IMG/VR virus record: IMGVR_UViG_3300030450_002556
Span: 1 to 49,756 of that record
DNA length: 49,756 nucleotides
Reading direction: 5' to 3' (one strand)
From: a virus
The notes below the pieces were generated by a model. It did not search any database, was not told the DNA's origin, and worked only from the letters and a program-made list of their open reading frames with translations. The position numbers and the translations under genes are program-made. Below, piece by piece: positions 8,601 through 49,353 of this stretch. Within the stretch, counting starts at the first letter, position 1; every line of letters starts with the position of its first letter.

Positions 8601-11600
8601 TTTACCCCTAAACCTCTCCATAATAGTACCTTCGTATATATCATTTATCATATCTGGAGATACTGGAGAGTAAGCGTTTTGAGTTAAGTGAGCTAAAGCT
8701 TGCTTAGCTATAACGTGGTCACCTTTAAACATATGGTCATTTTGTTTTACAGAGTAATTATACTTTATTTCTGAAGGGTCTACACTATATTTTTCAGCAG
8801 CTATTTCCAACTTACCATCAGAAGTAATATTGTAATCACCTATTTGCCTTGTCCCTCTTTGCTTAGAGGATGACTCCATTACTATGTAGTGTAAACCTTC
8901 CTTTTCCATTAACTCGGATAATTTAGCACCAGCTTTATGTGACATATACTTACCATACATAGCTCCCATAGGATTTCCATTCTTATCATTCTGAGTGCTT
9001 AGCATAAATGATTTGTTTTGACCTGACCTAGGCATTCCTGCGTCTGCATTCATATAATCAACAACATCATTCCTTGTTATAATAGCACCATCTACATGCT
9101 CTACATACATACTGTTTCTAACAGCTTCTATGTTAAATTCAGAATTACCTAAATGACTCCAAATTTTAGGGGTTTCCTTTAAATCTTTTACAATAACATA
9201 GTTTAATCTACCCTCTGGATTTAAATCCTTTACCCAGGTCTTTGCCAATTCTTTACTTCCAGGCCAAGAAGGAGTCATTATAATTTGAAGTCTTTTGTTA
9301 AATCCTACAACTCCCTTGATAAACCCATCGCCCATCATAGTAGCAACATATTTATCTATAGTATTCCTTTTTGTAGACAATTTATCTTTCATAGTCCCAG
9401 AGCCTATTTGAACTCTTTTACCAGACACTTTAATATCAAATCCATTTAAGGATAAATCATATAGTATATTAGACTCAAATGCCCTGTCAAAAATCTTCTT
9501 AGCTTCAGCAGATTTTAGTATGCCTTTATTTCTATTTACAAATTCATTTCTTGCATTTATATATTCGTTATTATTTTTAGTACCACTTTTTATCTTAGAT
9601 AAGAATTTAGAGTTTAAACTTAAGCCTGTCTTTCCACTAGCTGGATGGTACTTAGCATAGTACAATCTATCGGCATCACCTCTACCTCCAAACAGATAAA
9701 AGTCTTTCTTATTCATACTCTTATTTATCTCACTTAGAGTTTTGTCGTATTCTTTAGGATTGCTTCTTCTAAAGTCAGATAGTGTGCCATCTTTAACCCC
9801 AGCATCTTTAGTTCTTGTAGATATATTATCCACAATAACAAGAGAACCCATATCTTTATCAAGCTTTCCTCCAGCTTCTACAAACATTCTTTCTATTATC
9901 TTTTCAGGTTCTCTTTGAAACTTTCTATTTCCAGCAGGAGTTCTTCTTCTAGCCTCAGTCATAGGCTCTACAGATATTTTGCCATCAGCTTCGTTAAAAG
10001 TGACATTTACATATCTATTAGGAACTGCATTATTCTTTATATTTAACCATTGTCTTAAACTTCCAACAGCTTCTTCTGGAAGAGATAAATTAAACTCTTT
10101 TTCTATTTCATTTATTAACCCTTTAGTATTAGGTTCGTCACCTCTAGAAGTATACTTAGTTAATATCTTTTCAACTTTAGATGCCATTTCAAATGTATGC
10201 ATCCTTTTAGTTAAATTCTCTGGAGTATCTACTATTTTAGATATATGTTGATTAACAAATTGTTCTGACTTCTTGCCTACATCTACGTCAATCTTCATGC
10301 CTACATCAGTATCATTTAAATCTTCTGGAACTGCTTTACCTTCCTTATCTAACGTCATATCAGAAGGAACTTCATACATCTTTTCAAGCTCTTTATTTAA
10401 GGTATTTAACTCATTAGTAGATAGTTTTAGGTCTTTCTTAAGCTGGATTAAATTAGCTTTATCTTCTCCAGTCTTCTTCTTTTTATTACCTATTTCTTTT
10501 ATAGCCTCTCTATATGCATCTATTTCTTCTTGAACATTATTACGTCTTGTTTCTTTCTCTATAATTTTAGGACGCATAGTAACACTAGGAGTAGACACTT
10601 CTTCTTCTGCAACAGCTCCTTTTACCTTCTTCTCTTTTACAGATTCTCCAAAAGTCTTAGCTATAGTATTTTCTACAGCCTCAATACCTTGTTTCCATAT
10701 ATTTCTAGTTCCAACAAGTGCTGGCTTCTTAGATAGTTTTGGAGCTTCAGATATAGCTTTAAATTGATTTAACCTGTAATCAAACTTAAACCATTTGTTC
10801 TTAGCTTGTTCAAAAGTATATATAGGTTTTTTTAGTTGCTTTGCAAATTCAACTGTCCATCCAGAACCACCTCTGACAGTTTTATTATCAGTATTTATAT
10901 GGCCTATAGCATAAACTCCATCAGAAAACTTTGCTTTAAACCAATTACTATATATATAGTTTCTAGCAGTAGGGTCTGAAGGTGCATTTTTACCTAAAGA
11001 CTTAGCAGCTCTAACAACTCTTGGTCCAGCTTCTTGCAATTCACCTTCACTTAACTCTCTTATAACACCAGGAATACCTTTCTTTTCTATCCTTCTTCCG
11101 CCACCTTCATATGTATATTGAACAGTTTCTACACCTCTTTCAGCTATCCTACTAGACCATATATTATCAGCTCCTTCTGAACCACCAGATACTGCAACTT
11201 TAACTTGACCTTTTCCAAGTTCTTTTGTAGTAGCTATCTCTTCTCCACCTATAACTTTCTTAAGACCTGCCCATCCTTCTTTAGTCGCCTCTCCATTTAC
11301 AACCTCACCTAATCCCATTTTCTCAATTAAGTAAAGCCCCATACCTTGGTTTTCTAAGGCATTGCCCCATCTATTTTCAGCATCTTTTATTAATTGCTCT
11401 TGAACCTCTGGTTCTAAATCTTCAAACCCTTTCATTTTTCTAGGGTCTCTAGTGACAGCTAGCTCTTCATTTCCAGCTTTTTCAGCTTGTTTTACCATTT
11501 CTTGCTGAGCTCTCATAGAACCATGTTTTTTCCAGCTCATTTCCTTACCACCAAAATACCCACCTAATAGATATTCATATATCTGTTCAGGAGTAGTAGC

Positions 11601-12335
11601 TCCTCTAGCAGTAGATGGAAGGCCCATAAACAAAGAGCCTGATAATCTTCTTAACCATACCTGGTCTTTACCAGGCATTATATTACCTATAGCTCTAAAA
11701 GCTCCACCTGCTATAGCGCCTCCAAAGAAAGATTCCATCATAGAGTCTATACCACCTTGCCAAGTAGATACTCCACTAGCTACACCTAAATGGAAAGCTC
11801 CTTCAGCCATGTGAGCTGGAGCACCTTTAGTCATAAACTTAGCAGCATCTGATACAGCTCCTGCTCTACCAGCTCTTGCAGCTTTAGTAGCTGGAGCAAC
11901 TAATGATTTAGCCCCTTTAGTTACTTTATCTGCTATAAGCATTGGAACTGACTTTATTTTAGCTACGTGAGAAGCAAGTCCTATACCTCTAAATAGAGGA
12001 GCAGCCATACCAGGCACAAAACCTATTAAATGTCCTAGATTCCTAGATATAGCTTCATATTCATTGTCTGGATGTTTACCTACATCAAATGTGGTAAATC
12101 CACCGATAAATCCCATTCCAAATTGCTTAAAGGCTTCACCAATACTAAACTCACCTTCATAAAATGGTTTATTGTAAAACGAGGCATGATTTTTTATCTG
12201 CTGAATAGCAGGAGGTTGAAACATCTGGGGTGATGTTTTATATAATTTTATAGTTTGATTCAGCTGGTCTTCTGTCCAAGATGGTTTCCATTCTTGTTCA
12301 GGGACCTCTGAATAACCCATAGACGCTTGAGCCAT
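2685..12335 (-). CDS. Giant virion protein with SLOG-like and two-barrel RNA polymerase domains (3216 aa)
   Basis: The likely role is a virion-packaged polymerase that enters the cell with the DNA and starts early transcription. An N-terminal Gly/Ala-rich hydrophobic region covers about residues 70-220. A SLOG-like Rossmann domain lies at about 375-525, with SGGSEGADNIW and GGSGWTVEFAKQLKKPIY. A polymerase region spans about 1050-1620. Its first barrel candidate includes HVDGAIITRND (~1080) and Lys-bearing strands (~1130-1160). Its second barrel holds RVPMDSISG (~1470) and GGADLDGDEAFMYF, with the metal-binding aspartates at 1511, 1513 and 1515. A helical segment after it resembles the bridge-helix/trigger-loop zone. 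Long charged helical stretches follow, then a hydrophobic C-terminal part at about 3060-3090. DxDGD is the hallmark of cellular, QDE-1/YonO and crAss-type polymerases. The domain boundaries are inferred by eye. Confidence 0.8.
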   Translation of the reverse strand: MAQASMGYSEVPEQEWKPSWTEDQLNQTIKLYKTSPQMFQPPAIQQIKNHASFYNKPFYEGEFSIGEAFKQFGMGFIGGFTTFDVGKHPDNEYEAISRNLGHLIGFVPGMAAPLFRGIGLASHVAKIKSVPMLIADKVTKGAKSLVAPATKAARAGRAGAVSDAAKFMTKGAPAHMAEGAFHLGVASGVSTWQGGIDSMMESFFGGAIAGGAFRAIGNIMPGKDQVWLRRLSGSLFMGLPSTARGATTPEQIYEYLLGGYFGGKEMSWKKHGSMRAQQEMVKQAEKAGNEELAVTRDPRKMKGFEDLEPEVQEQLIKDAENRWGNALENQGMGLYLIEKMGLGEVVNGEATKEGWAGLKKVIGGEEIATTKELGKGQVKVAVSGGSEGADNIWSSRIAERGVETVQYTYEGGGRRIEKKGIPGVIRELSEGELQEAGPRVVRAAKSLGKNAPSDPTARNYIYSNWFKAKFSDGVYAIGHINTDNKTVRGGSGWTVEFAKQLKKPIYTFEQAKNKWFKFDYRLNQFKAISEAPKLSKKPALVGTRNIWKQGIEAVENTIAKTFGESVKEKKVKGAVAEEEVSTPSVTMRPKIIEKETRRNNVQEEIDAYREAIKEIGNKKKKTGEDKANLIQLKKDLKLSTNELNTLNKELEKMYEVPSDMTLDKEGKAVPEDLNDTDVGMKIDVDVGKKSEQFVNQHISKIVDTPENLTKRMHTFEMASKVEKILTKYTSRGDEPNTKGLINEIEKEFNLSLPEEAVGSLRQWLNIKNNAVPNRYVNVTFNEADGKISVEPMTEARRRTPAGNRKFQREPEKIIERMFVEAGGKLDKDMGSLVIVDNISTRTKDAGVKDGTLSDFRRSNPKEYDKTLSEINKSMNKKDFYLFGGRGDADRLYYAKYHPASGKTGLSLNSKFLSKIKSGTKNNNEYINARNEFVNRNKGILKSAEAKKIFDRAFESNILYDLSLNGFDIKVSGKRVQIGSGTMKDKLSTKRNTIDKYVATMMGDGFIKGVVGFNKRLQIIMTPSWPGSKELAKTWVKDLNPEGRLNYVIVKDLKETPKIWSHLGNSEFNIEAVRNSMYVEHVDGAIITRNDVVDYMNADAGMPRSGQNKSFMLSTQNDKNGNPMGAMYGKYMSHKAGAKLSELMEKEGLHYIVMESSSKQRGTRQIGDYNITSDGKLEIAAEKYSVDPSEIKYNYSVKQNDHMFKGDHVIAKQALAHLTQNAYSPVSPDMINDIYEGTIMERFRGKTEANEVLSRYLKEHNDSDLAYLNKNIEDIGVNELLRGIHSPHGTKFADAAYKRLFKINAEAIEAMRNEGEITKEQASNMQEEMSEFNQATDRIITQSLRVAQTSKQGALPVMLHKWIRPYRAVMMRNFLVHTVSRPKIGNSGNARIRPYDLALRMDLDNANPRLRELEKRDDIFFLDNEYKKMPIKTFIKGLENTNLDKLYQKYENKSTSKTIKEQIEEVLRAVVLRVPMDSISGAHALKFRGFTGRDGHGILMHSRTMRSLGGADLDGDEAFMYFGGRKGKEGGGFKKEWKDVYEANKEEYVMYRNVTTNKIITPEEYTKKPKLQRKNFVKYIPDPKTGEVVRPDGKHKGNTFRDLLTLTGTDKSYAKALKNSKVLQYALSTRQYISEKAVDGRNTLGPAVSMPQIFKTAHSMMMSSQNGKDVFQIQRKEKGKWKTYEIEVVPRTEKEWQQYQRKLSQSMVAFASDPMDEVGLKSYETWYKELYDAYFKINKVKDISGKKSVEVKGYKDNIDSFVKNFKMWGLKGGFKTPSLVGKVNEMNSALFGKDYANNKRWEEGEIRDKLRFLHELTPEEMPVLLAKMGDTIGMAEPFGDSMAKRLDRTKTIELYNKVNEYAEKESWLAPILGKSGFKVPYIENIQNVLNKKLYNSDKLDYHASSKEEFLNAIKGTSYGKDKVLLEKVNNGEEFGYTKRLEILKKMVRQADEFLTVDLHDMVSLKRIVPFIKQRRDKLTGRELKKFDKMILEVFNKTDELKKSSYLMRDQRRELDAFYDNMETKPEVIQDMFRDIVRIIPELKKDPTFKLPSGEERSATMDQVKVDAEIATYKKKLTPWGKKLFDYFMLGTWDRMHMRRAHKAEKLLKGLSETDPIFHDLLHIVKQAGAKTSLSKLGYSSESVSDNSVRDFMKDFMDISGKAFKESSREVENIQKNIENLKENTKIKLEDGTEVDGTIFGSNIDKKVEGTYTADLRGFEGLSKGKLNPKDAKVIEELAANIKYHYPEIGMRLGEVVRGVMEKDLNAMNREDFMIFNNVLKEMRTGTLNQKLDILMGNDPKGRIPELKKRYYMQFPETVSREVMKYDITWLRNKGAFLTKDGKWEEGKVQKPSWYLQGMTDWIGRMNQQGIELTEQLTGKLNNDLLFMEGVPNNELLRKVAVMKMEKDYEVPSIMKDEKMTPEHKNAASGEILRRYDRKVKEAGDMLDKSHRIVNRKGERVEKTGWEIVERIMDVYETSNKEAHKLLTGDRDRLIKEYGIGWWDKHRVEPILDYNRFLRDISKTYNKGESIPKWLGIDGLRQIARSMQIDMLSKDAKGKELRQKLINATLTRTGQKHFRGFWPHLFFSGKEVVKAINKRTIEIMNSDLEPAEKDAEIRKLVAKHKSLTGDWIDPNEGLWESIDRAQLGEAVKDVKGKKRPDRIDWWDNDLMIKSMYKRGAHIPGYSIERSTYESYLRNVGDTYFKQLNQIMTRDIIEKYKKRAFRKGWYKAKDYKDNMSLGQAWENYLKLYAQGAMGNPDIIPNKVYEDPTMKIKGTPYGWWSDNKVRDRLNKIKNSLFKGQKLHPKLEKIIDTDLDHNTVLKLSNMEAKFELASLLAHPKSMVANIFGGSMHTIQHAGWNYFKRAQKVSELQKINPEINSAEARDKWVVKHGIIPEFIMYEWGLSPELRTANAKQFIQEAVGKFTGDKVDRPGLIELAKKYEISKPIMEKAALFMSKPETKLRRDAFVASYLRAYDKFGGAFKNPDHPFLIEMAKKGVKATQFLYNAPYRPAFARTALGKVMTRFMLWSWNAARFRNDVIREARTRGISPGSAEFEKFKRTAQIDLFVFAMGNVFAYSLFETAMPAPWNWLQDTSDWLFGNEQERDRAFFGTWPAPVAPLQMITPPIARFPAAGLQAYLNDDYGRMADYHIYTALPFGRIVRDFSPYAPGNLVDNPLRLMDKWTGFPLTGLQKESKRLKKEGVYYPWSPVANGEEDE

Positions 12336-15838: not shown

Positions 15839-16492
15839 TTATTTCCATAATCTTAGCTTTACATAACCGCTATTAATATCATAATCATCAGATAGACTTG
15901 TCTTCCCATGTGCAAATACACTATGGTTTTGAGTGCCAATCTCTATAACATTTTTAGTTTTAGCCCACATACAGAATCCTCTATTATCAGTATCGGAATC
16001 TTCCCACATCCAAACCCCAGGATACCAAATCCTATCACTACCATCTTTAAATACTGCTTGAATTAATGTAAATAGCTCAGTATTTAAATTGTGAGTAAAA
16101 GTATAAGCTGTATTTACTGTAATAGCTGTCCAATCACTCTCATAATCTGGTGGAGGCATTAAACTACCCACACTCTTAGGCAGTGTAGACTTACTTTGTT
16201 CTTGTGCTATATCAACATCACCTTTTAAACTAACATATTTAGCTGTTTTATCTTCAAGCCATCCTTCATCACCTCTTATTTGAAGCGTATAATTGCCTGT
16301 TCTAGGCGTTTTTACAACTCTTATGTCCCCCTCACTACCCTCTGCAGTATCCTCAGCCTCCTTGCCTTTAAAGTTATGAACACTTTCTTTTAAATCATTC
16401 AAATCTTTGTAGACTTTAGTTAAAGCTTTTAATAAATCAGGTTCAGTTACATGAGGTGGGGTAAGTTTTACATCTTTTTCTTGTAATTTCAT
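15839..16492 (-). CDS. Tail-associated protein with short coiled coil (217 aa)
   Basis: An N-terminal helical segment (about residues 15-45) is followed by a beta-rich region containing YTLQIRGDEGW. A C-terminal domain contains FTHNLNTELFTLIQAVFKDGS and ends KLRLWK. The pattern of a short coiled coil plus a beta-sandwich is typical of phage tail fibre or tail-tip appendages. It starts within the TAATG stop of the nozzle gene, so its translation is probably coupled to it. The exact role is unknown. Confidence 0.6.
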   Translation of the reverse strand: MKLQEKDVKLTPPHVTEPDLLKALTKVYKDLNDLKESVHNFKGKEAEDTAEGSEGDIRVVKTPRTGNYTLQIRGDEGWLEDKTAKYVSLKGDVDIAQEQSKSTLPKSVGSLMPPPDYESDWTAITVNTAYTFTHNLNTELFTLIQAVFKDGSDRIWYPGVWMWEDSDTDNRGFCMWAKTKNVIEIGTQNHSVFAHGKTSLSDDYDINSGYVKLRLWK

Positions 16493-19400
16493 TATTTTAA
16501 GCCTTTAGCTCTATATATAATAGCAACACTATCAACCATTCCTTTTTGACCATCAAGTTCAAATCTCATTTTATACCCTTTAGTGCCACTTGGGAATTTA
16601 TAAGAAGGGCCTAATACATAAAATGTCTTAGCTCCGCTATGAGCTGCATTAGTAGTTCCTAACTGCCCTCTTTGCAATGTTAGAGTTAAGAGGCCTGTAG
16701 AGTAATCCATACTCTCTGCTGATACATACATTATTTCATCTTCCAATTTAACATACATACCTTGCCTAATAGCGGCAGTATAAGTACCTTCATCGTCTGT
16801 ACATTTATATGTCCATGTAGCAGGATTTGTTGTATCAAGACTAGTTGGAGTTGCGTTAGCTTCATTCAAATTATGAGATGTAATAGAGGTGTTATAGTTT
16901 TTATTCTCTATAGTAAGTGTTTTCTCTTCTCCATCTACATAAGCTTTTATATTTGTATTTGCCAAACCACTAGGTCTTCCAGCTAGCTTTAATTTATTGA
17001 ATACTTTTAACTGAGTATCGCTTCCAAAAGACATATTCTTACTATACCATTCCCAATCTCTAGCCTCTTCTCTCAATCTTTTATGTTCAAATATGTTAAA
17101 TCCATCTGCAAGATATATTCTGTTTTTTGCTCCTTGAGCAAAAGCCAATACACTTGGAACTTCTATATAGTCCCATCTTTGTTTACTTATACTAAAAGAA
17201 AAAGCTCTTGCCCCTCTTTTTGCTTCATCGGTAGTACAAGCAGTTGCTTTACAAAAACCTTTAGTCGTTACTATAAAAGAATTATGTCTTCCATCATATA
17301 ACACTTTTATATCATAACCTTGAGATTCTGCTATATCAACAGCGTTTATATATCCTACTCTCCATCTTCTTTTTAAACTATTCCTAAGTATAGGTTCTCC
17401 TATAGGAGTAGCACTTACACCATTGTGAATATAGATATTATTAGCATCAGCAAAACACATACCAAAATCAGTAGCTACTACAGCATCTTTCCCTAATATC
17501 CCGATACCTTCTAAAACATCCTCAACATAAAAGCCTTCTTGGTTGATTATATAAGTATCATTCTTATCCCAAGCATATAATTTACCTTTAAAGCCTTGTA
17601 TTGCTATTGGCTTAGTTGGTAATATTAAAAAGTCATTTACCCAGTCTACAACATCAGGTCTTCCAGGTTTAGACCTATATAAGTAATTCTCTATATTATC
17701 ACTTATTTTTCTATGAGATACTTGTCCATATACAGTATAATTTGCCAATTTAGTAGATAAACCCCAATTGACCATTGTATGTCTTCTATTAGAAGATATT
17801 CCATTCATAGTTTCATATGTTGGCCCTGATGGAGTATGAGAAAATGAGTATTCCCATTTATTGTCAGTATTATTGTAGTTCCATTTTGTCTCAGAAGTAG
17901 TATCTAAATTTATACTTTCAGCAAATGTCCATGGCTTAGTTACCAAATCATCTGAGAAATAAAGGTTTATATGCGAAACTCTAGGGCTTAACATCATTGC
18001 TTTAGTATTAGTTACTTTAAAAGTTGCAGCTATATTTGATTTATCTTCAGATAATTGAGGACTTTTTATTGTAAAAGTAGATAAAGGACTCTCTTGAATC
18101 CCATCATAAAGTAGTGAAATTTTATAATTAATAATATCTCCAGAAGAAAATCCTGCACCAGCAGATGACCCTGTCATATCAAATTTAATTAGATTATCTA
18201 TAGTGTCTATAGAAGTTCCAAGGTCATTATTTGTAGATGTGACAACTGCTCCTAAAGTATCAAATGCTGTATGAGATTGGGTTAACTGAAATACATTAAT
18301 AGCATCTTTCACATGAGTTAAAATGCTAGTAGTTTTGTCTTCAGAAATTCCAACTATAGCTGGATTATATGTACCAGTTCCAAATATCCCATCATCAGTA
18401 GTAGAGGACTCTTCATATCCTTGAAGGTGTAGCGTTGTATTGCTAAATAATAATCTTGGATTCTCATAAGTTCTTGCTGCTAAACATTTAATACTATCAA
18501 TCTCTGCTTTATAAGAATTTTTCCAGACAGTAGGACTTGAGATTGAACCAAGTCCAAATCCCATGCTAGCTTTTGCTGCAGCGGTATTTACTAAATTAGT
18601 TCCTTTTAAGCTATTTTCAAATGCTCCAACAGTATTATTATAATCAAGTTCTCCTTGATTAGATACCGATACATTGCCTGGAATATGCGTCGTACTATTT
18701 TCAGTGCTATAAGTATGATGTTTATTTATATTATAGGTTCCTATAAAGGTTTTATCTGCTTCATCATCATGAGCTGGAAAAGCTTGCCCATAAATAACTA
18801 ATATTCTTTTAAATTGAGATTCTTGATTTGTAGCTCCATTTCCATCCCATATAAGCAAAGGTTCCATTCCATAAATTACTCCTAATGAATGAGTATCTGT
18901 GCCATTGCTAATAGTATTCATTGATATAAGAGGGTCTATTTGGTACATTGTATTATCTTGCACCATTCTATCTAAAGTACCGCTATTAACAGCAGTTAAT
19001 ACGCTACTAGAAGAAGTATAGTCTCCATTAGTTGCATCTCCTTCACCATTATACACTATAGAAGTAACTGAGTTTCCGCAATTATAACGGCGGTCAGTAT
19101 TCCCTGTTACTCCACGACTTGTTGCATAAGGATAAGGGTGAACATTATCGTTATGCCCAGCATGATAATCTACATTTTTCTCCAGTCTAAAAAGTCTATT
19201 AATGTAAATATAGTCACCATCTTCTCTTGTATGGTCACTTGAAGAATGTGAATTTTGAACATCTTGGCTTAATTGGTTTGCTGTAATAGTATGATTAGCT
19301 GCTCCAGAGCCTCCAAAACTCATAACACCTAATTCCCTTTCACCACCAGAACCATACATGTCCTCTGGATGTTCATAAGTTTTGCAACTAATTTCTTTTA

Positions 19401-22400
19401 TTGTAAAAAGTTCAAGAGAATCAGTATATGTCTTAGTAACTCCTTTATCAGCATCTCTAGTGCACCACCATTCATGGTCAGCGGAAAGCCAAAAAAGGCC
19501 ATTATAATAACCTTCAGCAGGTTTCAATCTTCCACCAGACTCGATAAAAGTGCCCGTTACATGCCCTGCAAACATAACTCTATGTCCTTGATTGTGAGCT
19601 ACTACAGGATTATCCCCAGGCTGACCTTGCCTTACAACTTCAAACCTAGGTTCGTATCTAGTTAGTGTACCTCTATTGACTTTAATTTGTCTAGTGGCTT
19701 GACTATACCATCCTATATTTTTTCCTAAATCAACATCATTTTCTGGACTAGTGTCATTATTCATTGAACTAGATAATACCCAAGAAGTCTCGTCATCTGC
19801 TCCACTAGTGTTTTTATTATGCCTCCAAGTTAACCATCTACCTCTACTTTTAGAGGTTTTTCCATTTGAATAAAAACCATAGTAACTTGGAAATCCATTA
19901 CCAGCAATGTTCGAAGAATCCAATGAAGATACTCCAAACCTTTCTCTATTATAATAAAAATCATTTGTAGATTCATATTTCTGGTCATTTCTTGAATGTT
20001 TATTACATTCTGTGTAAGGAGGCGTTCTGTCTTTAACATAGACATCACCAGTCCTATTAGGGTCAAGCCATACCTTTTCATCTGCATAAGTACTGCCAGA
20101 GGCTTCAAAGTTATATAAGAACATATCCCATCTATTATAGCTTGCAACATCTGAGTTTTTGCCGTACATAATCCATGTTAAATAACTTCCATTAGGCTCG
20201 TAAGAACCAACTATGTCTCCATCAGAAGTATTATCTCTATATAGAAATCCAGACCCATCTGCGTCTGCATCTCTTCTATTCCACGTATCCATTATATCAG
20301 TAATTACTGAATCTTTAGGCTCTCTTTCCCATTCATCCTGCCAATCTTCAGAATCCCAATAAGGAGGGTCTACAATCTTTTTCCCCTCAGTAGTAAGAGA
20401 ATTTGGGAATTTTCCAAAATTCAACCTAAACGAAGGAAACTCCTGGCTTTTCTTAGGAAATTGAGGTCCATGGTCTGTGGATGTATCGTTTAAAACATTA
20501 TGTAAATCGAATCTACGAAGAATTTTGTTACTTGAGTTTAACGCATATGTTATAGTTCCATACTTCTTATTTATCTTTCTTTTTATAGGAGTACCTTCTG
20601 TTGTTTCTGAATGAGTCATATAACTATGACACCAGTTTATAGCAGTTATCTCTCCATCCATTTCAGAGTCTAACATATCATTTATAGGTATGCTAAATGT
20701 TTTTAAAGAGCTATTTGCAGTACTAGCAGTACCTCCAGGGTTTGGCCATAAACTTACATAAGATAAAATCTTTTGACCATAACTCAAACCTATACCAAAG
20801 GCAGGGCCAGCCCCAATTCCGTCAGCAGCACCAGAACTTGTGCCTTGATTAACATTCCCCATATATAAAAAGTCTACACCACTACATGTATTATTTGTAG
20901 CATATGTCAACTTAGTAACCATATAAACATCGCCAATAGCTATTGTTGCATCTTCTTTCCAATATCTTCTTTTAGCATCTCTTAAAATTCCATCGAAATC
21001 ATTTACATGACTTAAAACAAATGTCAATCCAGTAAATGGTCTAACTAAAGAAGTTGCAGCTGAAGTTCCACCTGCGGCTACATTATTTAAAGCAGCTGTA
21101 ACTTGGTTAGCAGCTGACGAACTTGCACCAACATCAAAGCATGCTTTTAGTAATGTATCGTTATTAACACTACCAAAATTAACAGCTCCTAAATTATTCT
21201 CCTCTAAAGCACATTGATAAGCAGGTATATCATTTCCATCATCTGTACCAGTAGTAGTACCAGTACCTTGGGATACATTTTTCATATCTATAAGTTGGCT
21301 TTGATACCATCTTTTACCCATTTCATCTGCTGGAGGTAAATATGGTACTATGAATTTATCAAAGTTGTATCCTGTAAGTTCTTCAGCAGGCTTTACTAGC
21401 TCTTGAGGTTCTACAAAAAATCCATTATGGTCGTTTTCTAATTGTTTTCGCTCTATACTTCCACACCAATAAGGAATAGAAGCCTTACCTGGCCCTAATC
21501 CTAGCCTTACTTCTTTATTATGCCTTATAAACGAAGATGTGTTGTCATGAGATAATCCGCTTTTAACTAAGCCAACTCCATTATTAAAGTCTATATCATT
21601 ATCTATATCATCTAATTTATGAATAGAGTTAGTATTTTTATCAAATGTTATTAAATCTGTCTTATGACCATCGTAAATAAGGGATAAATCAGAAGCCTTA
21701 ACTTCAAGACCAGTACCTTCTACACCAGTCGATATACTAAAAGGGGGAGCGTGTTCAGCAATTTCAAGAGTACCTGCTCTTGTTATAGATACTCCAGAAA
21801 AATCCGCTGTAATAGTATCGCTACCAGAACTCCTGTCTTTTCTAGTTATTACAAAATTTGTTCCAGTAGCTTTAAAGAACCCAACCTTATCACCTGTTGA
21901 ATTGAATTTAACAAGATTACCATCTTCTCCCATTACAGGAGTGTCATTTACTGTTATCTCTGCATTATCAGTAGTTACAAACCATAGTTCTGCAGTATTA
22001 CCAGCATCAGAATCAGTCCAATCATCAATTTTTATAGTATACTTATACATAACATCTTTTTCCAAGACTCCTGTTTGAGCAATAGCACATAATGCATTAG
22101 TACCATTATCATACATTCTACATTGATTAGGATTGTCTCCTGTTTGTATTTTAAAATGATTATTAGTCGTATGGTGATTATTCCAGCTATCCCATCCCTC
22201 TAAACCATCTCCCTGACTACTATCTGTTTCTGCTACTTCTGAGAAGTCTCCATTACGTATTAAATTACTTGCCGCTACCGTACTATAAGTTGTACCATCA
22301 CTAGCATAGTCACCTCTTATATCGTAAATATCTCCACTATTTCCTGTTAAGAGATAATAGCCATCTGGAATAGTAGAATGATTTCTTATTCTAGCAGCTG

Positions 22401-23313
22401 TTCCTGTATATATAAGACCAGCAGCTGAATTTGTGCCTTCTAATTCAAAAGCTGTAAAACCATCACTTGTTCCACTAGACCATGTAGCTTGCCTTTTATC
22501 GTTTTTAACTTCTTTTATTTGGTCTATTTGTGGGCCAAATCCATCTCCACCTGCATTATCTCCAGTCGAAGGATTTCTAAAAGAGTTTCCATATTGATTA
22601 TAAATAACATTATTTACTTCGACTCCAGTTTGAGGGGTAAGAATAACCCTTCTATTACTACCACTAACATCAGCAGTTGCCAATATAATACCTGACATTG
22701 TCCTTACATCAGTTGCATCATTAGGATTTATTTTATATTGAAGAGCATTCCAGCTTGATACAAATTTATTTATAACGTTCGTTGTAAAATTAGCTCCATA
22801 ATTAGAGCCAGTATCCTCTATATACATATTCAATACCATAGCAGTAACAGCTGCCCCTCCTATATCAGGAGCTATATCTATTAAGGATACAAGGCCATCT
22901 TGCGTTTCTATAGTATGGTCACCTAAGTAATCTATACTAGCAGATACTCCAGATAATGTATCAGTATCTAACTGAACTACAAAACTTCTAATACCTTCCT
23001 GCATTTGAAATATAAAATAAGAGGCATTAGGATAACCCATAACTGAGTTATTGTAAGCTGTTTTTCTAGCAGCATCATCAGCTAAATCATCATACCCTGG
23101 AAGTATATCTAGGTATATTTGATTTGTAGTTGCTGAGACAAATCCAGAAGAGTCTAAAACTTTATCTTTAGGAATACCTCCTAAAGTTCCTCCTTCTGTT
23201 TCTGGGTTTATGTTTTCGGAATAAGCAGCAGCTTCATCAGGTATATCAAGAGTAGATGCATTACTAAACAATCCTTCTTTAAAAGTTTTTAACTCTTTTA
23301 TAGTCTTAGGCAT
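16492..23313 (-). CDS. Very large tail nozzle / stabilisation-type protein (2273 aa)
   Basis: The N-terminus carries the sequence style of podoviral nozzle and tail-stabilisation proteins: FKEGLFSNASTLDIPDEAAA followed by a Gly-rich 'gtlGGIP' turn. At about residues 1890-1960 come the typical repeated strands around AIQGFKGKLYAWDKN. The last ~35 residues (starting FPSGTKGYKMRFELDG and ending IIYRAKGLK) match the usual closing strands of that family. The usual length is roughly 600-900 residues. The large middle part (about 250-1750), rich in Gly, Ser, Thr, Asn and Tyr, is extra and may form exposed beta domains. Start overlap with the upstream coiled-coil gene is 8 bases. Confidence 0.72.
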   Translation of the reverse strand: MPKTIKELKTFKEGLFSNASTLDIPDEAAAYSENINPETEGGTLGGIPKDKVLDSSGFVSATTNQIYLDILPGYDDLADDAARKTAYNNSVMGYPNASYFIFQMQEGIRSFVVQLDTDTLSGVSASIDYLGDHTIETQDGLVSLIDIAPDIGGAAVTAMVLNMYIEDTGSNYGANFTTNVINKFVSSWNALQYKINPNDATDVRTMSGIILATADVSGSNRRVILTPQTGVEVNNVIYNQYGNSFRNPSTGDNAGGDGFGPQIDQIKEVKNDKRQATWSSGTSDGFTAFELEGTNSAAGLIYTGTAARIRNHSTIPDGYYLLTGNSGDIYDIRGDYASDGTTYSTVAASNLIRNGDFSEVAETDSSQGDGLEGWDSWNNHHTTNNHFKIQTGDNPNQCRMYDNGTNALCAIAQTGVLEKDVMYKYTIKIDDWTDSDAGNTAELWFVTTDNAEITVNDTPVMGEDGNLVKFNSTGDKVGFFKATGTNFVITRKDRSSGSDTITADFSGVSITRAGTLEIAEHAPPFSISTGVEGTGLEVKASDLSLIYDGHKTDLITFDKNTNSIHKLDDIDNDIDFNNGVGLVKSGLSHDNTSSFIRHNKEVRLGLGPGKASIPYWCGSIERKQLENDHNGFFVEPQELVKPAEELTGYNFDKFIVPYLPPADEMGKRWYQSQLIDMKNVSQGTGTTTGTDDGNDIPAYQCALEENNLGAVNFGSVNNDTLLKACFDVGASSSAANQVTAALNNVAAGGTSAATSLVRPFTGLTFVLSHVNDFDGILRDAKRRYWKEDATIAIGDVYMVTKLTYATNNTCSGVDFLYMGNVNQGTSSGAADGIGAGPAFGIGLSYGQKILSYVSLWPNPGGTASTANSSLKTFSIPINDMLDSEMDGEITAINWCHSYMTHSETTEGTPIKRKINKKYGTITYALNSSNKILRRFDLHNVLNDTSTDHGPQFPKKSQEFPSFRLNFGKFPNSLTTEGKKIVDPPYWDSEDWQDEWEREPKDSVITDIMDTWNRRDADADGSGFLYRDNTSDGDIVGSYEPNGSYLTWIMYGKNSDVASYNRWDMFLYNFEASGSTYADEKVWLDPNRTGDVYVKDRTPPYTECNKHSRNDQKYESTNDFYYNRERFGVSSLDSSNIAGNGFPSYYGFYSNGKTSKSRGRWLTWRHNKNTSGADDETSWVLSSSMNNDTSPENDVDLGKNIGWYSQATRQIKVNRGTLTRYEPRFEVVRQGQPGDNPVVAHNQGHRVMFAGHVTGTFIESGGRLKPAEGYYNGLFWLSADHEWWCTRDADKGVTKTYTDSLELFTIKEISCKTYEHPEDMYGSGGERELGVMSFGGSGAANHTITANQLSQDVQNSHSSSDHTREDGDYIYINRLFRLEKNVDYHAGHNDNVHPYPYATSRGVTGNTDRRYNCGNSVTSIVYNGEGDATNGDYTSSSSVLTAVNSGTLDRMVQDNTMYQIDPLISMNTISNGTDTHSLGVIYGMEPLLIWDGNGATNQESQFKRILVIYGQAFPAHDDEADKTFIGTYNINKHHTYSTENSTTHIPGNVSVSNQGELDYNNTVGAFENSLKGTNLVNTAAAKASMGFGLGSISSPTVWKNSYKAEIDSIKCLAARTYENPRLLFSNTTLHLQGYEESSTTDDGIFGTGTYNPAIVGISEDKTTSILTHVKDAINVFQLTQSHTAFDTLGAVVTSTNNDLGTSIDTIDNLIKFDMTGSSAGAGFSSGDIINYKISLLYDGIQESPLSTFTIKSPQLSEDKSNIAATFKVTNTKAMMLSPRVSHINLYFSDDLVTKPWTFAESINLDTTSETKWNYNNTDNKWEYSFSHTPSGPTYETMNGISSNRRHTMVNWGLSTKLANYTVYGQVSHRKISDNIENYLYRSKPGRPDVVDWVNDFLILPTKPIAIQGFKGKLYAWDKNDTYIINQEGFYVEDVLEGIGILGKDAVVATDFGMCFADANNIYIHNGVSATPIGEPILRNSLKRRWRVGYINAVDIAESQGYDIKVLYDGRHNSFIVTTKGFCKATACTTDEAKRGARAFSFSISKQRWDYIEVPSVLAFAQGAKNRIYLADGFNIFEHKRLREEARDWEWYSKNMSFGSDTQLKVFNKLKLAGRPSGLANTNIKAYVDGEEKTLTIENKNYNTSITSHNLNEANATPTSLDTTNPATWTYKCTDDEGTYTAAIRQGMYVKLEDEIMYVSAESMDYSTGLLTLTLQRGQLGTTNAAHSGAKTFYVLGPSYKFPSGTKGYKMRFELDGQKGMVDSVAIIYRAKGLK

Positions 23314-44837: not shown

Positions 44838-45083
44838 ATGGCAAATTCAAACCCTGAGATTAACCTCTCATCATATAAAAACGGTAACACGTTAACAAAG
44901 ACTTCATCATATGCAACAGTAGGCGATATTTTAGAAGCTGAAAGCATTGCATTGACTGAAGCATCTATTGACATCTATGATGTTAATGGACAAGACAAAC
45001 CTGCTAGACCTGGAACAGTATTAGCACAAGGTGATACTGTACAGATAGTTAGGAAGTCTAATAAGTCTGGTATTGTAGCATAA
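44838..45083 (+). CDS. Ubiquitin-like beta-grasp modifier (81 aa)
   Basis: A strong AAGGAGACC site precedes ATG 44838. The layout reads as a beta-grasp: early strands, TVGDILEAESIAL (helix), ASIDIYDVNGQD (strand-turn), TVLAQGDTVQIVRKSNKSG (closing strand). 'L..GDtV.i..K...G' is the signature of MoaD/ThiS-like and prokaryotic Ubl proteins, including PRTRC protein C. It ends KSG-IVA rather than GG. The JAB protease encoded downstream could remove IVA to expose Gly78. Its neighbours are E2, JAB and E1 homologues in order, which strongly supports a modifier role. It is followed by a terminator-like hairpin. Confidence 0.75.
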   Translation: MANSNPEINLSSYKNGNTLTKTSSYATVGDILEAESIALTEASIDIYDVNGQDKPARPGTVLAQGDTVQIVRKSNKSGIVA

Positions 45084-45217
45084 CCACTAACGACCCAAGC
45101 GCCAAAGCTACATAGTAGCAGAGCACAGCGGCAATGTGATGTTAAGTGAGCAATTGAAGAAGGGTGGTGGTCCAGCGATGGAGAATCCACCCTTTTTCTT
45201 AAGATAAGGAAAAGAAA
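45084..45217 (+). promoter_or_regulatory. Leader between the Ubl and E2 genes, with attenuator
   Basis: This 134-base non-coding gap stands out among otherwise overlapping genes. It contains CGACCCAAGCGCCAAAGC and other GC-rich segments and ends with the terminator-like hairpin at 45157-45200. It may set the ratio of modifier to conjugating enzymes, or hold a small RNA or promoter for the downstream genes. I could not identify a clear promoter. Confidence 0.45.
45157..45200 (+). terminator. Intrinsic terminator / attenuator between modifier and enzymes
   Basis: AAGGGTGG (45160-45167) pairs perfectly with CCACCCTT (45187-45194), and the right arm runs directly into TTTTTCTT (45193-45200). The 19-base loop is large, with a possible small inner helix. 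This is the best plus-strand terminator in the window. Read-through is needed for the E2, JAB and E1 genes unless a promoter lies in the gap. Confidence 0.7.
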
Positions 45218-46714
45218 ATGGACTATATATTTAATAACATACCAAATATGACTGAATTAACAGGTTATAGTTGTGTTGTAGATGAAGAACCATTACCTAC
45301 TCTTCAATTTGTATTTGATGAAATAAAGAAAAGTTATGTAAATGACAGAAATATAAGAACAAATCTATTTATTGAAGATTATGGTGATGAGCAAGGAAAG
45401 AAAATGATGGATGAAAGATGGCCTATGCCTGTTAATGTTAATGAATTAGCAAGTCAGGCTAAAATAATAGCAAATAAGTATGAAATATGTGGAACAACTC
45501 TAATAAATAAAAGACCAGGATTTATTGTAAAAATTCCTAATGTAAGAGTGCGTGTTCGGACATATTGTAACTTAGGAGACTATTATTGCTGGATACAGAA
45601 ATGGAATATTGATAAGTTTGTATTAAAGATTTATCAAGCTATGCCAAATGAAGAAGGTTACATGGTATTTGGTGGGGCAAGTTATCCCCACCCTCACATA
45701 TCAGGTTCTTCTCCCTGTCTAGGTGGCTTTGAAGCACCTATAAGAAACGCTGCTGGTCATTTTAATATGGTTGGGATATTGAGCAATATTAATAAATATC
45801 TCAATTCATACTATGGTAGAAGTGTATTCTTGAGACATACTGAATTCAGACCAATAAAAAGAGAAATATTGCCTATTGATATGCTAAAAGAGTATAATGG
45901 GACTAGTTTAAGATTCGATGATTGGTTCATGTTTCAAAAGCACTATTCTAAAGATATTAAATATGGAACTGAAGAGTATTATGATATTTATGATAATTGG
46001 AAAGAAAAGTATCACAGTAAGCGTGATACAATCGAAATAAAACCCCATGAATCTACTTATTATACAGTTAAGTATCGTAATAGTGATGCAGATGTAAGAG
46101 CTACAAATAGAAAGCACATACTAAAAACACTATTAGTCCAAGATAAGTTTAAAATAGATACATTTTGGCAAGCATACGCAATATTTATAGAGGCTGGAGT
46201 AAGTAATAATAAAGTACCCATAACTTTCGGTAAAAACTATGTTGAGCATGAAGAAGCATTTCATTATATGAATGATACAATTATGAAGATGAAAGATACA
46301 GTGTATTATTATGGATTTAGCAGTGCTAAAGAAATAAGACCTGATGACTCACCTGATGAATTTGGATTATTTCAAAAAGTTAATGAAATATACAACTTAA
46401 TAGTTCCCAGAAGTGGTGGATTAGTATATACATATGAACAAATGACATGTAAAGACTTTTGGGATTTACTATCTAAATTTGAAAGCTATGAAGATTTCTT
46501 GAATCAACCGTCAGACCATGATGAAAGAAAAGATAAAGCTATTCAATTAATAGATAAAGTATTGCCAGAAGTATATGAGTGGCATGATGCATATAAAAGA
46601 AAAGTTATAATTAACCTAGATAAACAGAGAAGGAGAATCGCAAATGGACTTAAACATACCATACCAACTCCAGATGCACATCAATTATCTTTTGAAACGC
46701 TTCCCAAAGACTGA
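45218..46714 (+). CDS. E2-like ubiquitin-conjugating protein (498 aa)
   Basis: An AAGGAAAAG leader precedes ATG 45218. The active-site region reads SYPHPHISGSSPCLGG: HPH at 158-160 takes the place of the HPN motif of E2 enzymes, and C167 is the candidate thioester cysteine seven residues later, followed by LGG as in PRTRC-B/bacterial E2-like proteins. The upstream strands (PGFIVKIPNVRVRVRTYCNL, about 105-125) fit the E2 beta meander. After the domain, about 280 residues of charged helical sequence have no recognised match and may bind the substrate or E1. The 3' end overlaps the JAB gene by 71 bases. Confidence 0.75.
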   Translation: MDYIFNNIPNMTELTGYSCVVDEEPLPTLQFVFDEIKKSYVNDRNIRTNLFIEDYGDEQGKKMMDERWPMPVNVNELASQAKIIANKYEICGTTLINKRPGFIVKIPNVRVRVRTYCNLGDYYCWIQKWNIDKFVLKIYQAMPNEEGYMVFGGASYPHPHISGSSPCLGGFEAPIRNAAGHFNMVGILSNINKYLNSYYGRSVFLRHTEFRPIKREILPIDMLKEYNGTSLRFDDWFMFQKHYSKDIKYGTEEYYDIYDNWKEKYHSKRDTIEIKPHESTYYTVKYRNSDADVRATNRKHILKTLLVQDKFKIDTFWQAYAIFIEAGVSNNKVPITFGKNYVEHEEAFHYMNDTIMKMKDTVYYYGFSSAKEIRPDDSPDEFGLFQKVNEIYNLIVPRSGGLVYTYEQMTCKDFWDLLSKFESYEDFLNQPSDHDERKDKAIQLIDKVLPEVYEWHDAYKRKVIINLDKQRRRIANGLKHTIPTPDAHQLSFETLPKD

Positions 46715-47378
46715 ATGGTCAGGACCAGCGTGGTATAAGTTAGAAGAAGATAAGTGGAATTTAGTGCATTTTATACCAATAGATTTAGGTAGCCATAGTG
46801 CTACAGAATTTAAAGGTAAAGATTTACTTAAAATAATGAAAGAAGTGCAGAAAACAGTTGATGTAAAAGACTGTTTTCAAGGTATTATCCATTCCCACCA
46901 TGGGATGGGAGCGTTTCATAGTGGGACGGATGATACTGAATTAGAAGAAGGAGCTAACAGAGTTGGTTATCCTTCATTAGTAGTAGCTCATACAAAAGCA
47001 ACACATGCATTTAAATATTCTTATGAAGACCAATTTGGTGAAGTGCATTTAGTAGATGGTGAAGTAGTTATTCAAATGCCTGCTTATAAAGCTAAAGATA
47101 CATGGATAACTCAGGCAGATAAAATAGAGAAGGCTGCTAAAAAGAAGCCTAAAGTCATTACATATAGTGGAGCCAATCAAACTAGTCTTTGGAATGGTAA
47201 AAAATATAATGGCTGGGGTGGTTATATTGACCAAGAAGAGGTTAAATATAATGAAAAGTATGAGAAGATGCAAGAAGCAGAACTACAATATGCATCAGGT
47301 ACTATGAGTAGAACTAAGTATAAAAAAGCTAAAAAGGAATGGGAAACATTTGAATCAGACCATTTCGGGATTATATAA
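46644..47378 (+). CDS. JAB/JAMM-type (iso)peptidase (244 aa)
   Basis: An AAGGAGAATCG site inside the E2 gene precedes ATG 46644. The complete metalloprotease set is visible: E24 in TEWSG, then H83-S-H85, S93 and D96 in HSHHGMGAFHSGTDD, which fits HxHx7SxxD exactly. Such enzymes trim ubiquitin-like precursors and remove them from targets. The C-terminal ~80 residues (about 165-244) form a charged helical extension. It lies between the E2 and E1 genes and shares a TAATG junction with the latter. The activity is strongly implied by motif; the substrate is inferred from context. Confidence 0.88.
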   Translation: MDLNIPYQLQMHINYLLKRFPKTEWSGPAWYKLEEDKWNLVHFIPIDLGSHSATEFKGKDLLKIMKEVQKTVDVKDCFQGIIHSHHGMGAFHSGTDDTELEEGANRVGYPSLVVAHTKATHAFKYSYEDQFGEVHLVDGEVVIQMPAYKAKDTWITQADKIEKAAKKKPKVITYSGANQTSLWNGKKYNGWGGYIDQEEVKYNEKYEKMQEAELQYASGTMSRTKYKKAKKEWETFESDHFGII

Positions 47379-48148
47379 TGCTTAGGTATCTTAGAAATAA
47401 AGACCTCATTAATCAATCTTTACTTAATGAAGTAACTATAATAGGGGCTGGTGGAATAGCATCAGCCCTTGTTACTATATTAGCTCAAATGGGATTTAAG
47501 AAGTTTCACATTTGGGATGATGATAAACTGGAAGAACATAATTTAAGTACAACAGCTTATCCTGAAGATTACATAGGATACACTAAAGTTGAATGTGCTG
47601 CTAAAATGATACATATGTACGATAAAAGTATTGACGTAACTATGTGTATTAAAAGATGGGAACCAGGAGATTATCTATCTGATATAGTATTATTAACTCC
47701 AGATAACATGGAAACACGCCTAGATGTACATATGGATTGGAAGCGGAATAAAAATAGAAGAGCTCTAATAGATATGCGTATGGGTGCGTTAACAATGGAA
47801 GTTATTTCAGTAGAAAAAGATAATGATAATTTTGGAAAAACTTGGCAAGCAAGTGACCAAATATCAGATGAGGCATGCACAGCAAAGCATACAATCTTTA
47901 CTGCAAACATAGTTGCTGGGCTAGGTGCAAGTCAATTATTTAATGTCTTGCATAATAGGTCCTATTGGCAGTATATTAGGCAGTCGTTGGCACCTCTATC
48001 CTTCGGTAGAGAGTATCCAATTAATAAAATAAATAACGAGGTAAAAGATGGCTTTAAAAAAGACAAAGAGAAAGATAGTGTCTCTAAATCCCTCAATAAT
48101 GCTCTTGTACGGACCACCCAAGGTCGGCAAGACAACTATGTTGAGTAA
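47378..48148 (+). CDS. E1/ThiF-like Ubl-activating enzyme (256 aa)
   Basis: The N-terminus (LRYLRNKDLINQSLLNE) matches the RY.RQ helix of ThiF/MoeB. The ATP-binding GAGGIAS is at 23-29 and the acidic strand WDDDKLEEHNL at 46-56. VVLL-type core strands are followed by NMETRLDV. C167 (SDEACTAKH) is a plausible catalytic cysteine. CxxC zinc pairs seen in MoeB/ThiF are absent. The family adenylates the C-terminal glycine of ubiquitin-like proteins. Its start shares a base with the JAB stop. Its last 101 bases overlap the ATPase gene. Confidence 0.85.
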   Translation: MLRYLRNKDLINQSLLNEVTIIGAGGIASALVTILAQMGFKKFHIWDDDKLEEHNLSTTAYPEDYIGYTKVECAAKMIHMYDKSIDVTMCIKRWEPGDYLSDIVLLTPDNMETRLDVHMDWKRNKNRRALIDMRMGALTMEVISVEKDNDNFGKTWQASDQISDEACTAKHTIFTANIVAGLGASQLFNVLHNRSYWQYIRQSLAPLSFGREYPINKINNEVKDGFKKDKEKDSVSKSLNNALVRTTQGRQDNYVE

Positions 48149-48743
48149 ATTGGAAGACTGTCTTATTATTGACACTGAACAAGGGTCAAAAATGGTTGAA
48201 GCGTATGTCGCAGATGTTAAAAGTAGAGCTGAATTGATAAATTTAGTTAAAGAGGCTAAAGAAGGGCACGAATATACTTATTTTGCTATAGATACTATTG
48301 ATAAAGTAGTAGAATGGGCAGAAAGAGCAGTGTGTCAAGAATATGAAGTAGCTTCTATTGCAGATTTATCATTTGGTAAAGGATATGCTTTAACTAGAGA
48401 AAAGGTAATGAATACAATCAAGGCTTTTGCTGATTGTGTAGACCATTTAATACTAATAGGGCATCGTAAAGTTGCTAGAGCTATTTTAGATGGTAAACCA
48501 ATAGTAGAACCTGAGAGTTTAGATATTACAGGTAAATTAAAATCTATGATTATGTCAGATTGTGATGCAATAGGATATGTACATAGAGACGAAGAAGAAA
48601 ATCTTATGGTTTCATTCAAAGCAAGTGAGGCAGTCGAAGCTGGGAGTAGATGTACTCACTTAAAAGGTGAAATTATGGATTTTGATTGGAATAAAATATA
48701 CAAGAAGGAGAAAAGCAATGTCGTTAATAAGACCAAAAAGTAG
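48048..48743 (+). CDS. RecA-fold ATPase, Sak4 / AAA_24-like (231 aa)
   Basis: GAGGTAAAAG precedes ATG 48048 inside the end of the E1 gene. Walker A is GPPKVGKT (22-29) and the Walker B-like strand is YFAIDTIDKVVEW (about 80-93). The family includes phage Sak4-type single-strand annealing/recombination ATPases, usually about 200-250 residues, as here. The next gene looks like an ssDNA-binding partner, a pairing commonly seen with Sak4. The 101-base overlap ties its translation to the ubiquitin-like cassette. Confidence 0.82.
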   Translation: MALKKTKRKIVSLNPSIMLLYGPPKVGKTTMLSKLEDCLIIDTEQGSKMVEAYVADVKSRAELINLVKEAKEGHEYTYFAIDTIDKVVEWAERAVCQEYEVASIADLSFGKGYALTREKVMNTIKAFADCVDHLILIGHRKVARAILDGKPIVEPESLDITGKLKSMIMSDCDAIGYVHRDEEENLMVSFKASEAVEAGSRCTHLKGEIMDFDWNKIYKKEKSNVVNKTKK

Positions 48744-49353
48744 TAATGGAGACAAGTCAAACTTTTATGGAGTTTGTGAAATAGCGCTACAAGGAGCTCA
48801 AGATAAAAGTGATAAGTTTGATTGGGCAGATATTTACCTTGATGTAGAAATTAAACAAAAGGGTAGTGATTATACTAAATCATTCCGAATATGTGGCTCA
48901 TTTGAAAAAGACCCTGATGGGACTGTATCAGGCGGTTCTGTGCTGAATCGTTTGTATAACTTTTTAGATTGTATCGGCTGTAAAGCTGGTATCAATGCTA
49001 AAGGAGAATGGGAACAGGAAGATGGGAAACCTATCGACAATATCTCTAAGTTTATAACTGACGGATATTGTAATGGCTTTGGCTCTGAACCGAAAAGCTT
49101 TCCGTATATAGCATATGTATATAAGGAAAAACCTAAGAAGCTTGGAGACAAAGTATATGCTAGGGTTCATCATAAAATCTACCCTAATGCCGAAGGAAAT
49201 AGCCAGAAACTTTTAGACGATGTAAATTGGCTAAAAGGTAGAGGTTATTTAAAAGAGGCTAGTCCTGAAGAGTTGGATGCTACGCGTCCAATTACATCAA
49301 ATGGCATGGACATGGAGAAAAACCTGCCCGCAGATGCATTTGATAACTTATAA
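48718..49353 (+). CDS. Putative ssDNA-binding / recombination partner protein (211 aa)
   Basis: The start is placed at ATG 48718 because AAGGAGAAAAGCA lies directly upstream; an in-frame ATG at 48667 lacks a site. Residues 5-60 alternate strands (FYGVCEIALQGAQD, IYLDVEIKQ), consistent with an OB-like fold. A Lys-rich middle part follows (YVYKEKPKKLGDKVYARVHH). The C-terminus is acidic to polar (PADAFDNL), as in many SSB-type proteins. It is similar in context to DUF669-type partners of Sak4. It overlaps the ATPase gene by 26 bases and the primase gene by one. Confidence 0.6.
   Translation: MSLIRPKSSNGDKSNFYGVCEIALQGAQDKSDKFDWADIYLDVEIKQKGSDYTKSFRICGSFEKDPDGTVSGGSVLNRLYNFLDCIGCKAGINAKGEWEQEDGKPIDNISKFITDGYCNGFGSEPKSFPYIAYVYKEKPKKLGDKVYARVHHKIYPNAEGNSQKLLDDVNWLKGRGYLKEASPEELDATRPITSNGMDMEKNLPADAFDNL

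Follow-up and report, generated by a model that had tools for sequence, protein, structure and literature searches.

Several systems are known in which a ubiquitin-like protein (Ubl) is encoded together with a JAB peptidase and with E1 and E2 enzymes. In one group of bacterial operons of this kind, the E2 has no histidine before its cysteine and has one after it instead (row 6d in Iyer 2006, PMC1779556). In Bil, BilA consists of two Ubl domains, BilB has a CEHH motif with the histidine after the cysteine, and BilD contains an inactive and an active adenylation domain (PMC11354881). Here, we analyzed the viral record IMGVR_UViG_3300030450_002556 from IMG/VR over positions 1 to 49,756 (49,756 nucleotides; hereafter the window), which carries on its + strand, at 44838–48148, a cassette of four genes for a Ubl, an E2-like protein, a JAB peptidase and an E1/ThiF-like enzyme. 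The parts are of known kinds, and phage-borne Ubl and JAB have already been noted in lambda and T1, where the TAPI-TAPK proteins belong to tail assembly (Iyer 2006, PMC1779556). The four genes together probably form a phage-encoded ubiquitin-like conjugation pathway.

Conservation of the four genes

All four open reading frames (ORFs) were found on the + strand, consecutive and where the first-pass annotation had placed them. An IMG/VR scan with the E1 yielded 14 close contigs, and a search with an E1 alignment yielded 244 contigs with relatives, the best 80 of which were retrieved. Gene order could be tested where the sequence upstream of E1 exceeded 3.6 kb, which was so at 39 loci, some of them near-copies of one another. 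The Ubl, E2-like, JAB and E1 genes occurred together and in the same order in 39/39 of these; 36 loci were recognised by hidden Markov models (HMMs), and in L074, L079 and L091 a diverged HPH...C protein lies in the expected place. Conservation of residues was counted in de-duplicated sets of 29–62 distinct sequences per gene. The earlier claim of a complete Ubl-E2-JAB-E1 set on a phage was borne out; the set appears intact, with order and catalytic residues kept in dozens of distinct contigs. Searched by sequence, the E2-like protein of the window alone gave no match in viral contigs or phages. No relatives turned up in 84,980 bacterial and archaeal genomes scanned once with an E1 motif and once with a JAB motif, each scan resting on one short conserved motif, so that distant relatives could escape. 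A plasmid search returned one partial ThiF match and nothing else.

The E2-like protein (45218–46714, +, 498 aa) was aligned in 40 distinct sequences. Its HPH...C motif (H158 to C167, 45689–45718, +), read correctly in the first-pass annotation as HPHISGSSPCLG with H158, P159, H160 and C167, was invariant at these four positions in 40/40 sequences. The AlphaFold2 (AF2) model of the whole protein, with a predicted local distance difference test score (pLDDT) of 85.7, places a helix at residues 74–87, strands at 89–96, 99–112, 116–128 and 134–143, the HPH at 158–160, C167, and then helices. The order α1-β1-β2-β3-β4-HPH-C-α2 is that of E2 enzymes (ubiquitin-conjugating, or UBC, fold). The element order of the model and weak VIA matches delimit a predicted UBC-like catalytic core at residues 70–205 (45425–45832, +). 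In some members the position and spacing of the motif are as in E2s, as seen on comparing HPHINDNGKPCLGEF (L037) with HPNINSNGSICLDIL (UBE2D2), and hhalign of the core alignment against human UBE2D2 matched HPH...C with HPN...C over 24 columns (E 0.0017).

The remainder of the protein, residues 206–498 (45833–46711, +), evolves fast. Identity of the window proteins to those of the nearest relatives was 82–92% in E1, 58–82% in the E2 core, and 30–38% in the E2 C-terminal half; in round figures, the core is conserved at about 80% and the C-terminal half at about 37%. The ratio of nonsynonymous to synonymous change (dN/dS, NG86), calculated for nine close pairs that differ, was 0.29–0.86 in the C-terminal half and 0.09–0.48 in the core, 0.05–0.24 in E1, and at most 0.08 in the Sak4-like gene that follows the cassette. 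All values were no higher than 1, and therefore indicate relaxed or episodically diversifying change, positive selection not being proven. The fast change suggests that the C-terminal half is a changing target-recognition part.

The Ubl gene (44838–45083, +) encodes 81 aa ending in ...NKSG-IVA. The first-pass annotation had named the fold of this protein as decisive, and its predicted structure was a ThiS/ubiquitin-like β-grasp (AF2, pLDDT 86.6), with ThiS, TtuB, SAMP1, SUMO and ubiquitin among the matches in the PDB. The protein matched the Pfam family Ub-Mut7C with an E value of 2.7e-4, just below the cut-off, and its profile matched ThiS (2cu3) among PDB sequences with an E value of 3e-4. 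S77 and G78 (45066–45071, +) were present in 29/29 distinct Ubls and form the predicted mature C-terminus. The Ubl genes of L028, L029, L033, L036 and L044 stop exactly at this glycine and many others one residue later, and the window Ubl has three residues (IVA) after it. Gene ends converging on Ser-Gly, next to a gene for a JAMM protease, are as expected of a trimmed Ubl precursor.

The JAB/JAMM peptidase gene (46644–47378, +, 244 aa) matched the Pfam family Prok-JAB with an E value of 3.4e-5, just below the cut-off; 23/25 members of the JAB family matched it. The residues pointed out in the first-pass annotation, E24 and the JAMM motif HSHx7SxxD (H83, H85, S93, D96; 46890–46931, +), are all in place; H83, S84, H85, S93 and D96 were found in 100% and E24, upstream, in 98% of 62 sequences. 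Identity to the nearest relatives was 80–88% in the catalytic part of JAB and 50–59% in its C-terminal part. The JAB frame overlaps the end of the E2 frame by 71 nt (46644–46714), an overlap seen again in most relatives and in crassviruses.

The E1/ThiF-like adenylating enzyme (47378–48148, +, 256 aa) matched ThiF (PF00899) with an E value of 2.3e-18; UBA5 was the best match to its profile, which also matched MccB, MoeB and ThiF, and a weak match to Citrobacter BubCD was found (E 1e-5). The nucleotide-binding GAGGIAS (residues 23–29, 47444–47464, +) and C167 (47876–47878, +) are where they had been noted. Across 61 distinct sequences, G23, G25, S29, D47, D49, N55, K70, D109, R114, D132 and R134 were kept in 100%, and G26 and C167 in 98%. 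In crassviruses and the phage Fpv1, the cysteine of a C[ST].K[QH]T motif aligns with C167, which is a candidate thioester cysteine and putatively the catalytic one.

Comparison with bacterial systems and with other phages

The first-pass annotation had seen in the cassette the gene order of the PRTRC core. PRTRC-type operons contain four equivalent kinds of component, and row 6d resembles the cassette (Iyer 2006), but kinship was not borne out. E1 scored 25.5 bits against PRTRC_ThiF, with a cut-off of 144.75; JAB matched PRTRC_A with an E value of 0.09; and PRTRC_B and PRTRC_C matched none of the E2-like or Ubl members. The E2 of row 6d has its histidine after the cysteine, and that of the window before it. 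The absence of a ParB-like gene nearby, also part of the earlier description, held: PRTRC_parB was not found in the 52,397-base record, which may be a fragment, in a search whose controls were detected, though below the cut-off. Membership in PRTRC was rejected on the profile scores and the missing PRTRC_parB.

Bil resembles the cassette in its four genes for Ubl, E2, JAB and E1 and in belonging to the conflict between phages and bacteria. The window set differs in having one 81-aa Ubl domain, HPH before the cysteine and one 256-aa ThiF domain, and in being carried by a phage. With no tandem Ubl, no CEHH and a single adenylation domain, it was not assigned to Bil. The presumed E1, E2 and JAB activities are likewise shared with CBASS Cap2/Cap3 and with 6A-MBL operons, and the E2 core weakly matched Cap2. 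In PADLOC, the matches listed were all to E1-E2 models, hit weakly and by the E1 domain alone. Cap2 is an E1-E2 fusion, whereas the window has separate E1 and E2 genes and its own Ubl. Cap2/Cap3 membership was rejected because no E1-E2 fusion was present and no nucleotidyltransferase family was matched in a Pfam scan of ten genes. The TAPI-TAPK pairs of lambda and T1 differ in that no E1 or E2 has been reported there and in lying among tail-assembly, not replication, genes.

Closer counterparts were found in phages. A tblastn search revealed relatives of E1 and JAB in the Fpv1 group of Flavobacterium psychrophilum phages and in crassviruses, in which a protein with a Ubl domain, an H.H...C protein, JAB and ThiF are encoded in this order next to primase and uracil-DNA glycosylase genes. 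In the cultured gut phage crAss001, the set is gp79-gp76, Sak4 is gp84 and primase is gp80; in DAC15, the equivalent set is gp48-gp51, also near Sak4 and primase. Both have the motifs HSH...C[LT]G, JAMM, GxGGIGS and CSYKQT. The crassvirus and Fpv1 sets are annotated merely as hypothetical, metalloprotease domain or ThiF. They share with the window the gene order, the H.H...C protein, JAMM, the CSYKQT-type E1 motif and the SG of the Ubl, and differ from it in that their Ubl forms the N-terminal domain of a 211–289 aa protein, that HSH and C stand further apart, and that a fifth gene follows E1. A crassvirus Ubl profile found no Ubl match in the PDB, so that this domain was assigned as a Ubl by its position, its SG tail and alignments.

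Beyond the SG, the crassvirus Ubl domain continues into a conserved extension of about 120–130 aa (GLQD...FGKNFTQ; L018:1933-2589, L019:1770-2405, L095:2920-3597), which may be a precursor tail cut by JAB or a second domain. The unannotated fifth gene (191–362 aa), right after E1 in crassviruses and Fpv1 (L095:7330-8142, L018:5645-6289, L019:5642-6316, L017:6672-7760), is absent from window-type contigs, and the one product tested had no Pfam match. The JAB gene of Fpv1 (NC_031914) is split just before the JAMM motif by a group I intron (RF00028, L017:4033-4278), and the two halves are annotated as two hypothetical proteins. With 43.4 bits (E 2.5e-9), the intron narrowly missed the gathering score; it is accompanied by an endonuclease gene on the opposite strand.

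Evidence for and against a conjugation pathway

The E2-like protein is the weak point of the set, and several results weigh against a conjugation pathway. No meaningful match was found for this protein in Pfam, NCBIfam or PHROG, E2 family profiles matched no member of its family, and Foldseek with the whole 498-aa model found nothing significant in the PDB. VIA-align gave weak matches to Ubc13 (6zht_B; Z 5.3, rmsd (root-mean-square deviation) 3.5, 127/153 residues aligned) and to the E2 part of Cap2 (Z 4.5), and a Z of 5.3 falls in the range of common arrangements. The marine-type family represented by the window aligned weakly with its crassvirus counterparts in hhalign, for the E2-like protein (E 0.029 whole, 0.009 core) as for the Ubl (E 0.0035), and the Ubl is nearest in sequence to sulfur carriers of the ThiS type. 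A core-only profile of the E2-like protein also found no match among PDB sequences. In BFVD, a predicted viral protein without a name (A0A516LW79) came structurally close to the whole E2-like protein (Foldseek E 2e-12, 474 aa).

These negative family and fold searches would fit a protein that is not an E2; in that case E1 would itself transfer the Ubl to the target, and the HPH...C protein would be a substrate, a scaffold or another enzyme. We regard this as very improbable, given the E2-equal position and spacing of the motif in some members, the 40/40 invariance of H, P, H and C, and the presence of Ubc13 and the Cap2 E2 among the structural matches. On the motif, the model and the weak fold matches, the 498-aa protein is a probable E2.

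The closeness of the Ubl to ThiS, and of its structure to TtuB and ThiS among the best matches, would also be expected of a sulfur relay, in which the Ubl would be a ThiS/MoaD-type carrier trimmed by JAB, E1 would form the adenylate for thiocarboxylation, and the HPH...C protein would be a cysteine-dependent sulfur acceptor that modifies nucleotides, tRNA or phage DNA. Clusters of JAB, ThiS and E1 in sulfur metabolism are known (Iyer 2006, PMC1779556), and the DNA-handling neighbours would suit such a function. This explanation appears unlikely, since the neighbours scanned or annotated include no rhodanese, sulfurtransferase, cysteine desulfurase or ThiG (a host donor could serve), the HPH...C motif is of E2 type, invariant and set in a UBC-like order, and its protein matches no sulfur-acceptor family. 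A fast-evolving half would, moreover, be unexpected if the substrate were a small molecule or tRNA.

The sequence itself supports the presence, the order and the intact active sites of the parts. For a working conjugation and deconjugation pathway, which is the simplest reading, we infer trimming, a thioester relay, conjugation and a target as follows. JAB would trim the Ubl to its Ser-Gly end, a step that relatives with a Ubl gene ending at Gly would not need. Judging by the invariant ThiF/E1 residues, E1 would adenylate the Ubl C-terminus and then take the Ubl on C167 as a thioester. The motif, the model and the weak fold matches suggest that C167 of the E2-like protein would receive the Ubl, with H158/H160 in place of HPN. 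The C-terminal half of the E2 may pick the target, standing in for an E3, with no separate E3 involved, and JAB may also take the tag off.

Genome context, possible targets and implications

The structural arm of the window (terminase, portal, major head protein) lies on the – strand and the replication arm on the + strand, with the cassette. The setting among replication genes described earlier was confirmed by a Sak4-like single-stranded DNA-annealing ATPase gene (48048–48743, +; phrog_124, E 8e-34) directly 3' of the cassette, a constant neighbour that follows E1 in nearly all related loci. Its frame overlaps that of E1 by 101 nt (48048–48148). The E2/JAB and E1/Sak4 overlaps suggest translational coupling or true starts further on; for the Sak4-like gene, the true start is probably downstream of 48048. 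After it comes a gene (48667–49353) for a protein of about 200–228 aa across relatives, with family unassigned, which at a guess might bind single-stranded DNA, and further along, a gene of 581 aa containing a P-loop resembles one for a primase-helicase. Two ORFs on the – strand, in the virion arm, are very large (2685–12335, 3216 aa; 16492–23313, 2273 aa), and no tRNA and no Rfam match was detected in the window. The portal and terminase weakly match those of other phages (KPP25-like and P22-like for the portal), and the phage does not appear to be a crassvirus; the cassette and its replication neighbours are therefore common to distant phages. The cultured carriers that we found infect Bacteroidota.

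In unrelated phage lineages the cassette has genes for Sak4 and primase beside it, which makes a protein at the replication or recombination fork of the phage the most likely target. Given how fast the presumed targeting half changes, we lean toward a host protein that acts on phage DNA, but the replisome of the phage itself is almost as probable. The same fast evolution would accord with counter-defence, in which the Ubl, E1 and E2 would decoy or jam a Bil- or CBASS-type system of the host and JAB would strip host tags, with no new targets, and bacterial Ubl systems can indeed be antiviral (Bil; PMC13373217, PMC11354881). However, a decoy needs no 98–100% retention of catalytic residues in E1, E2 and JAB, and the cassette is present in all testable relatives and lies near replication genes, unlike scattered accessory anti-defence genes; we consider counter-defence quite improbable. 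The wider form of the conjugation reading, that unrelated phages including crassviruses run their own pathway with an undescribed E2 family, whose C-terminal half is a built-in ligase aiming at host proteins that meet phage DNA, is put forward tentatively, at somewhat less than even chances.

The lambda/T1 TAPI-TAPK pairs aside, searches of published open-licence papers gave nothing that looked like a description of a Ubl conjugation set carried by a phage, and the word ubiquitin is absent from the crAss001 genome paper and from a 2021 paper on crAss-like genomes. Since crAss001, DAC15 and Fpv1 are cultured carriers, the targets are open to direct mass spectrometry during infection. In bacteria, Ubl conjugation is known chiefly from defence against phages, as in Bil and CBASS, and a conserved phage pathway, if true, would reverse this picture. 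It would add a new E2 lineage, and would give a specific and testable function to four genes of the crassviruses, which rank with the most abundant viruses of the human gut. With the set present in many other phages, including crAss001, viruses of bacteria seem to run protein-tagging of their own.

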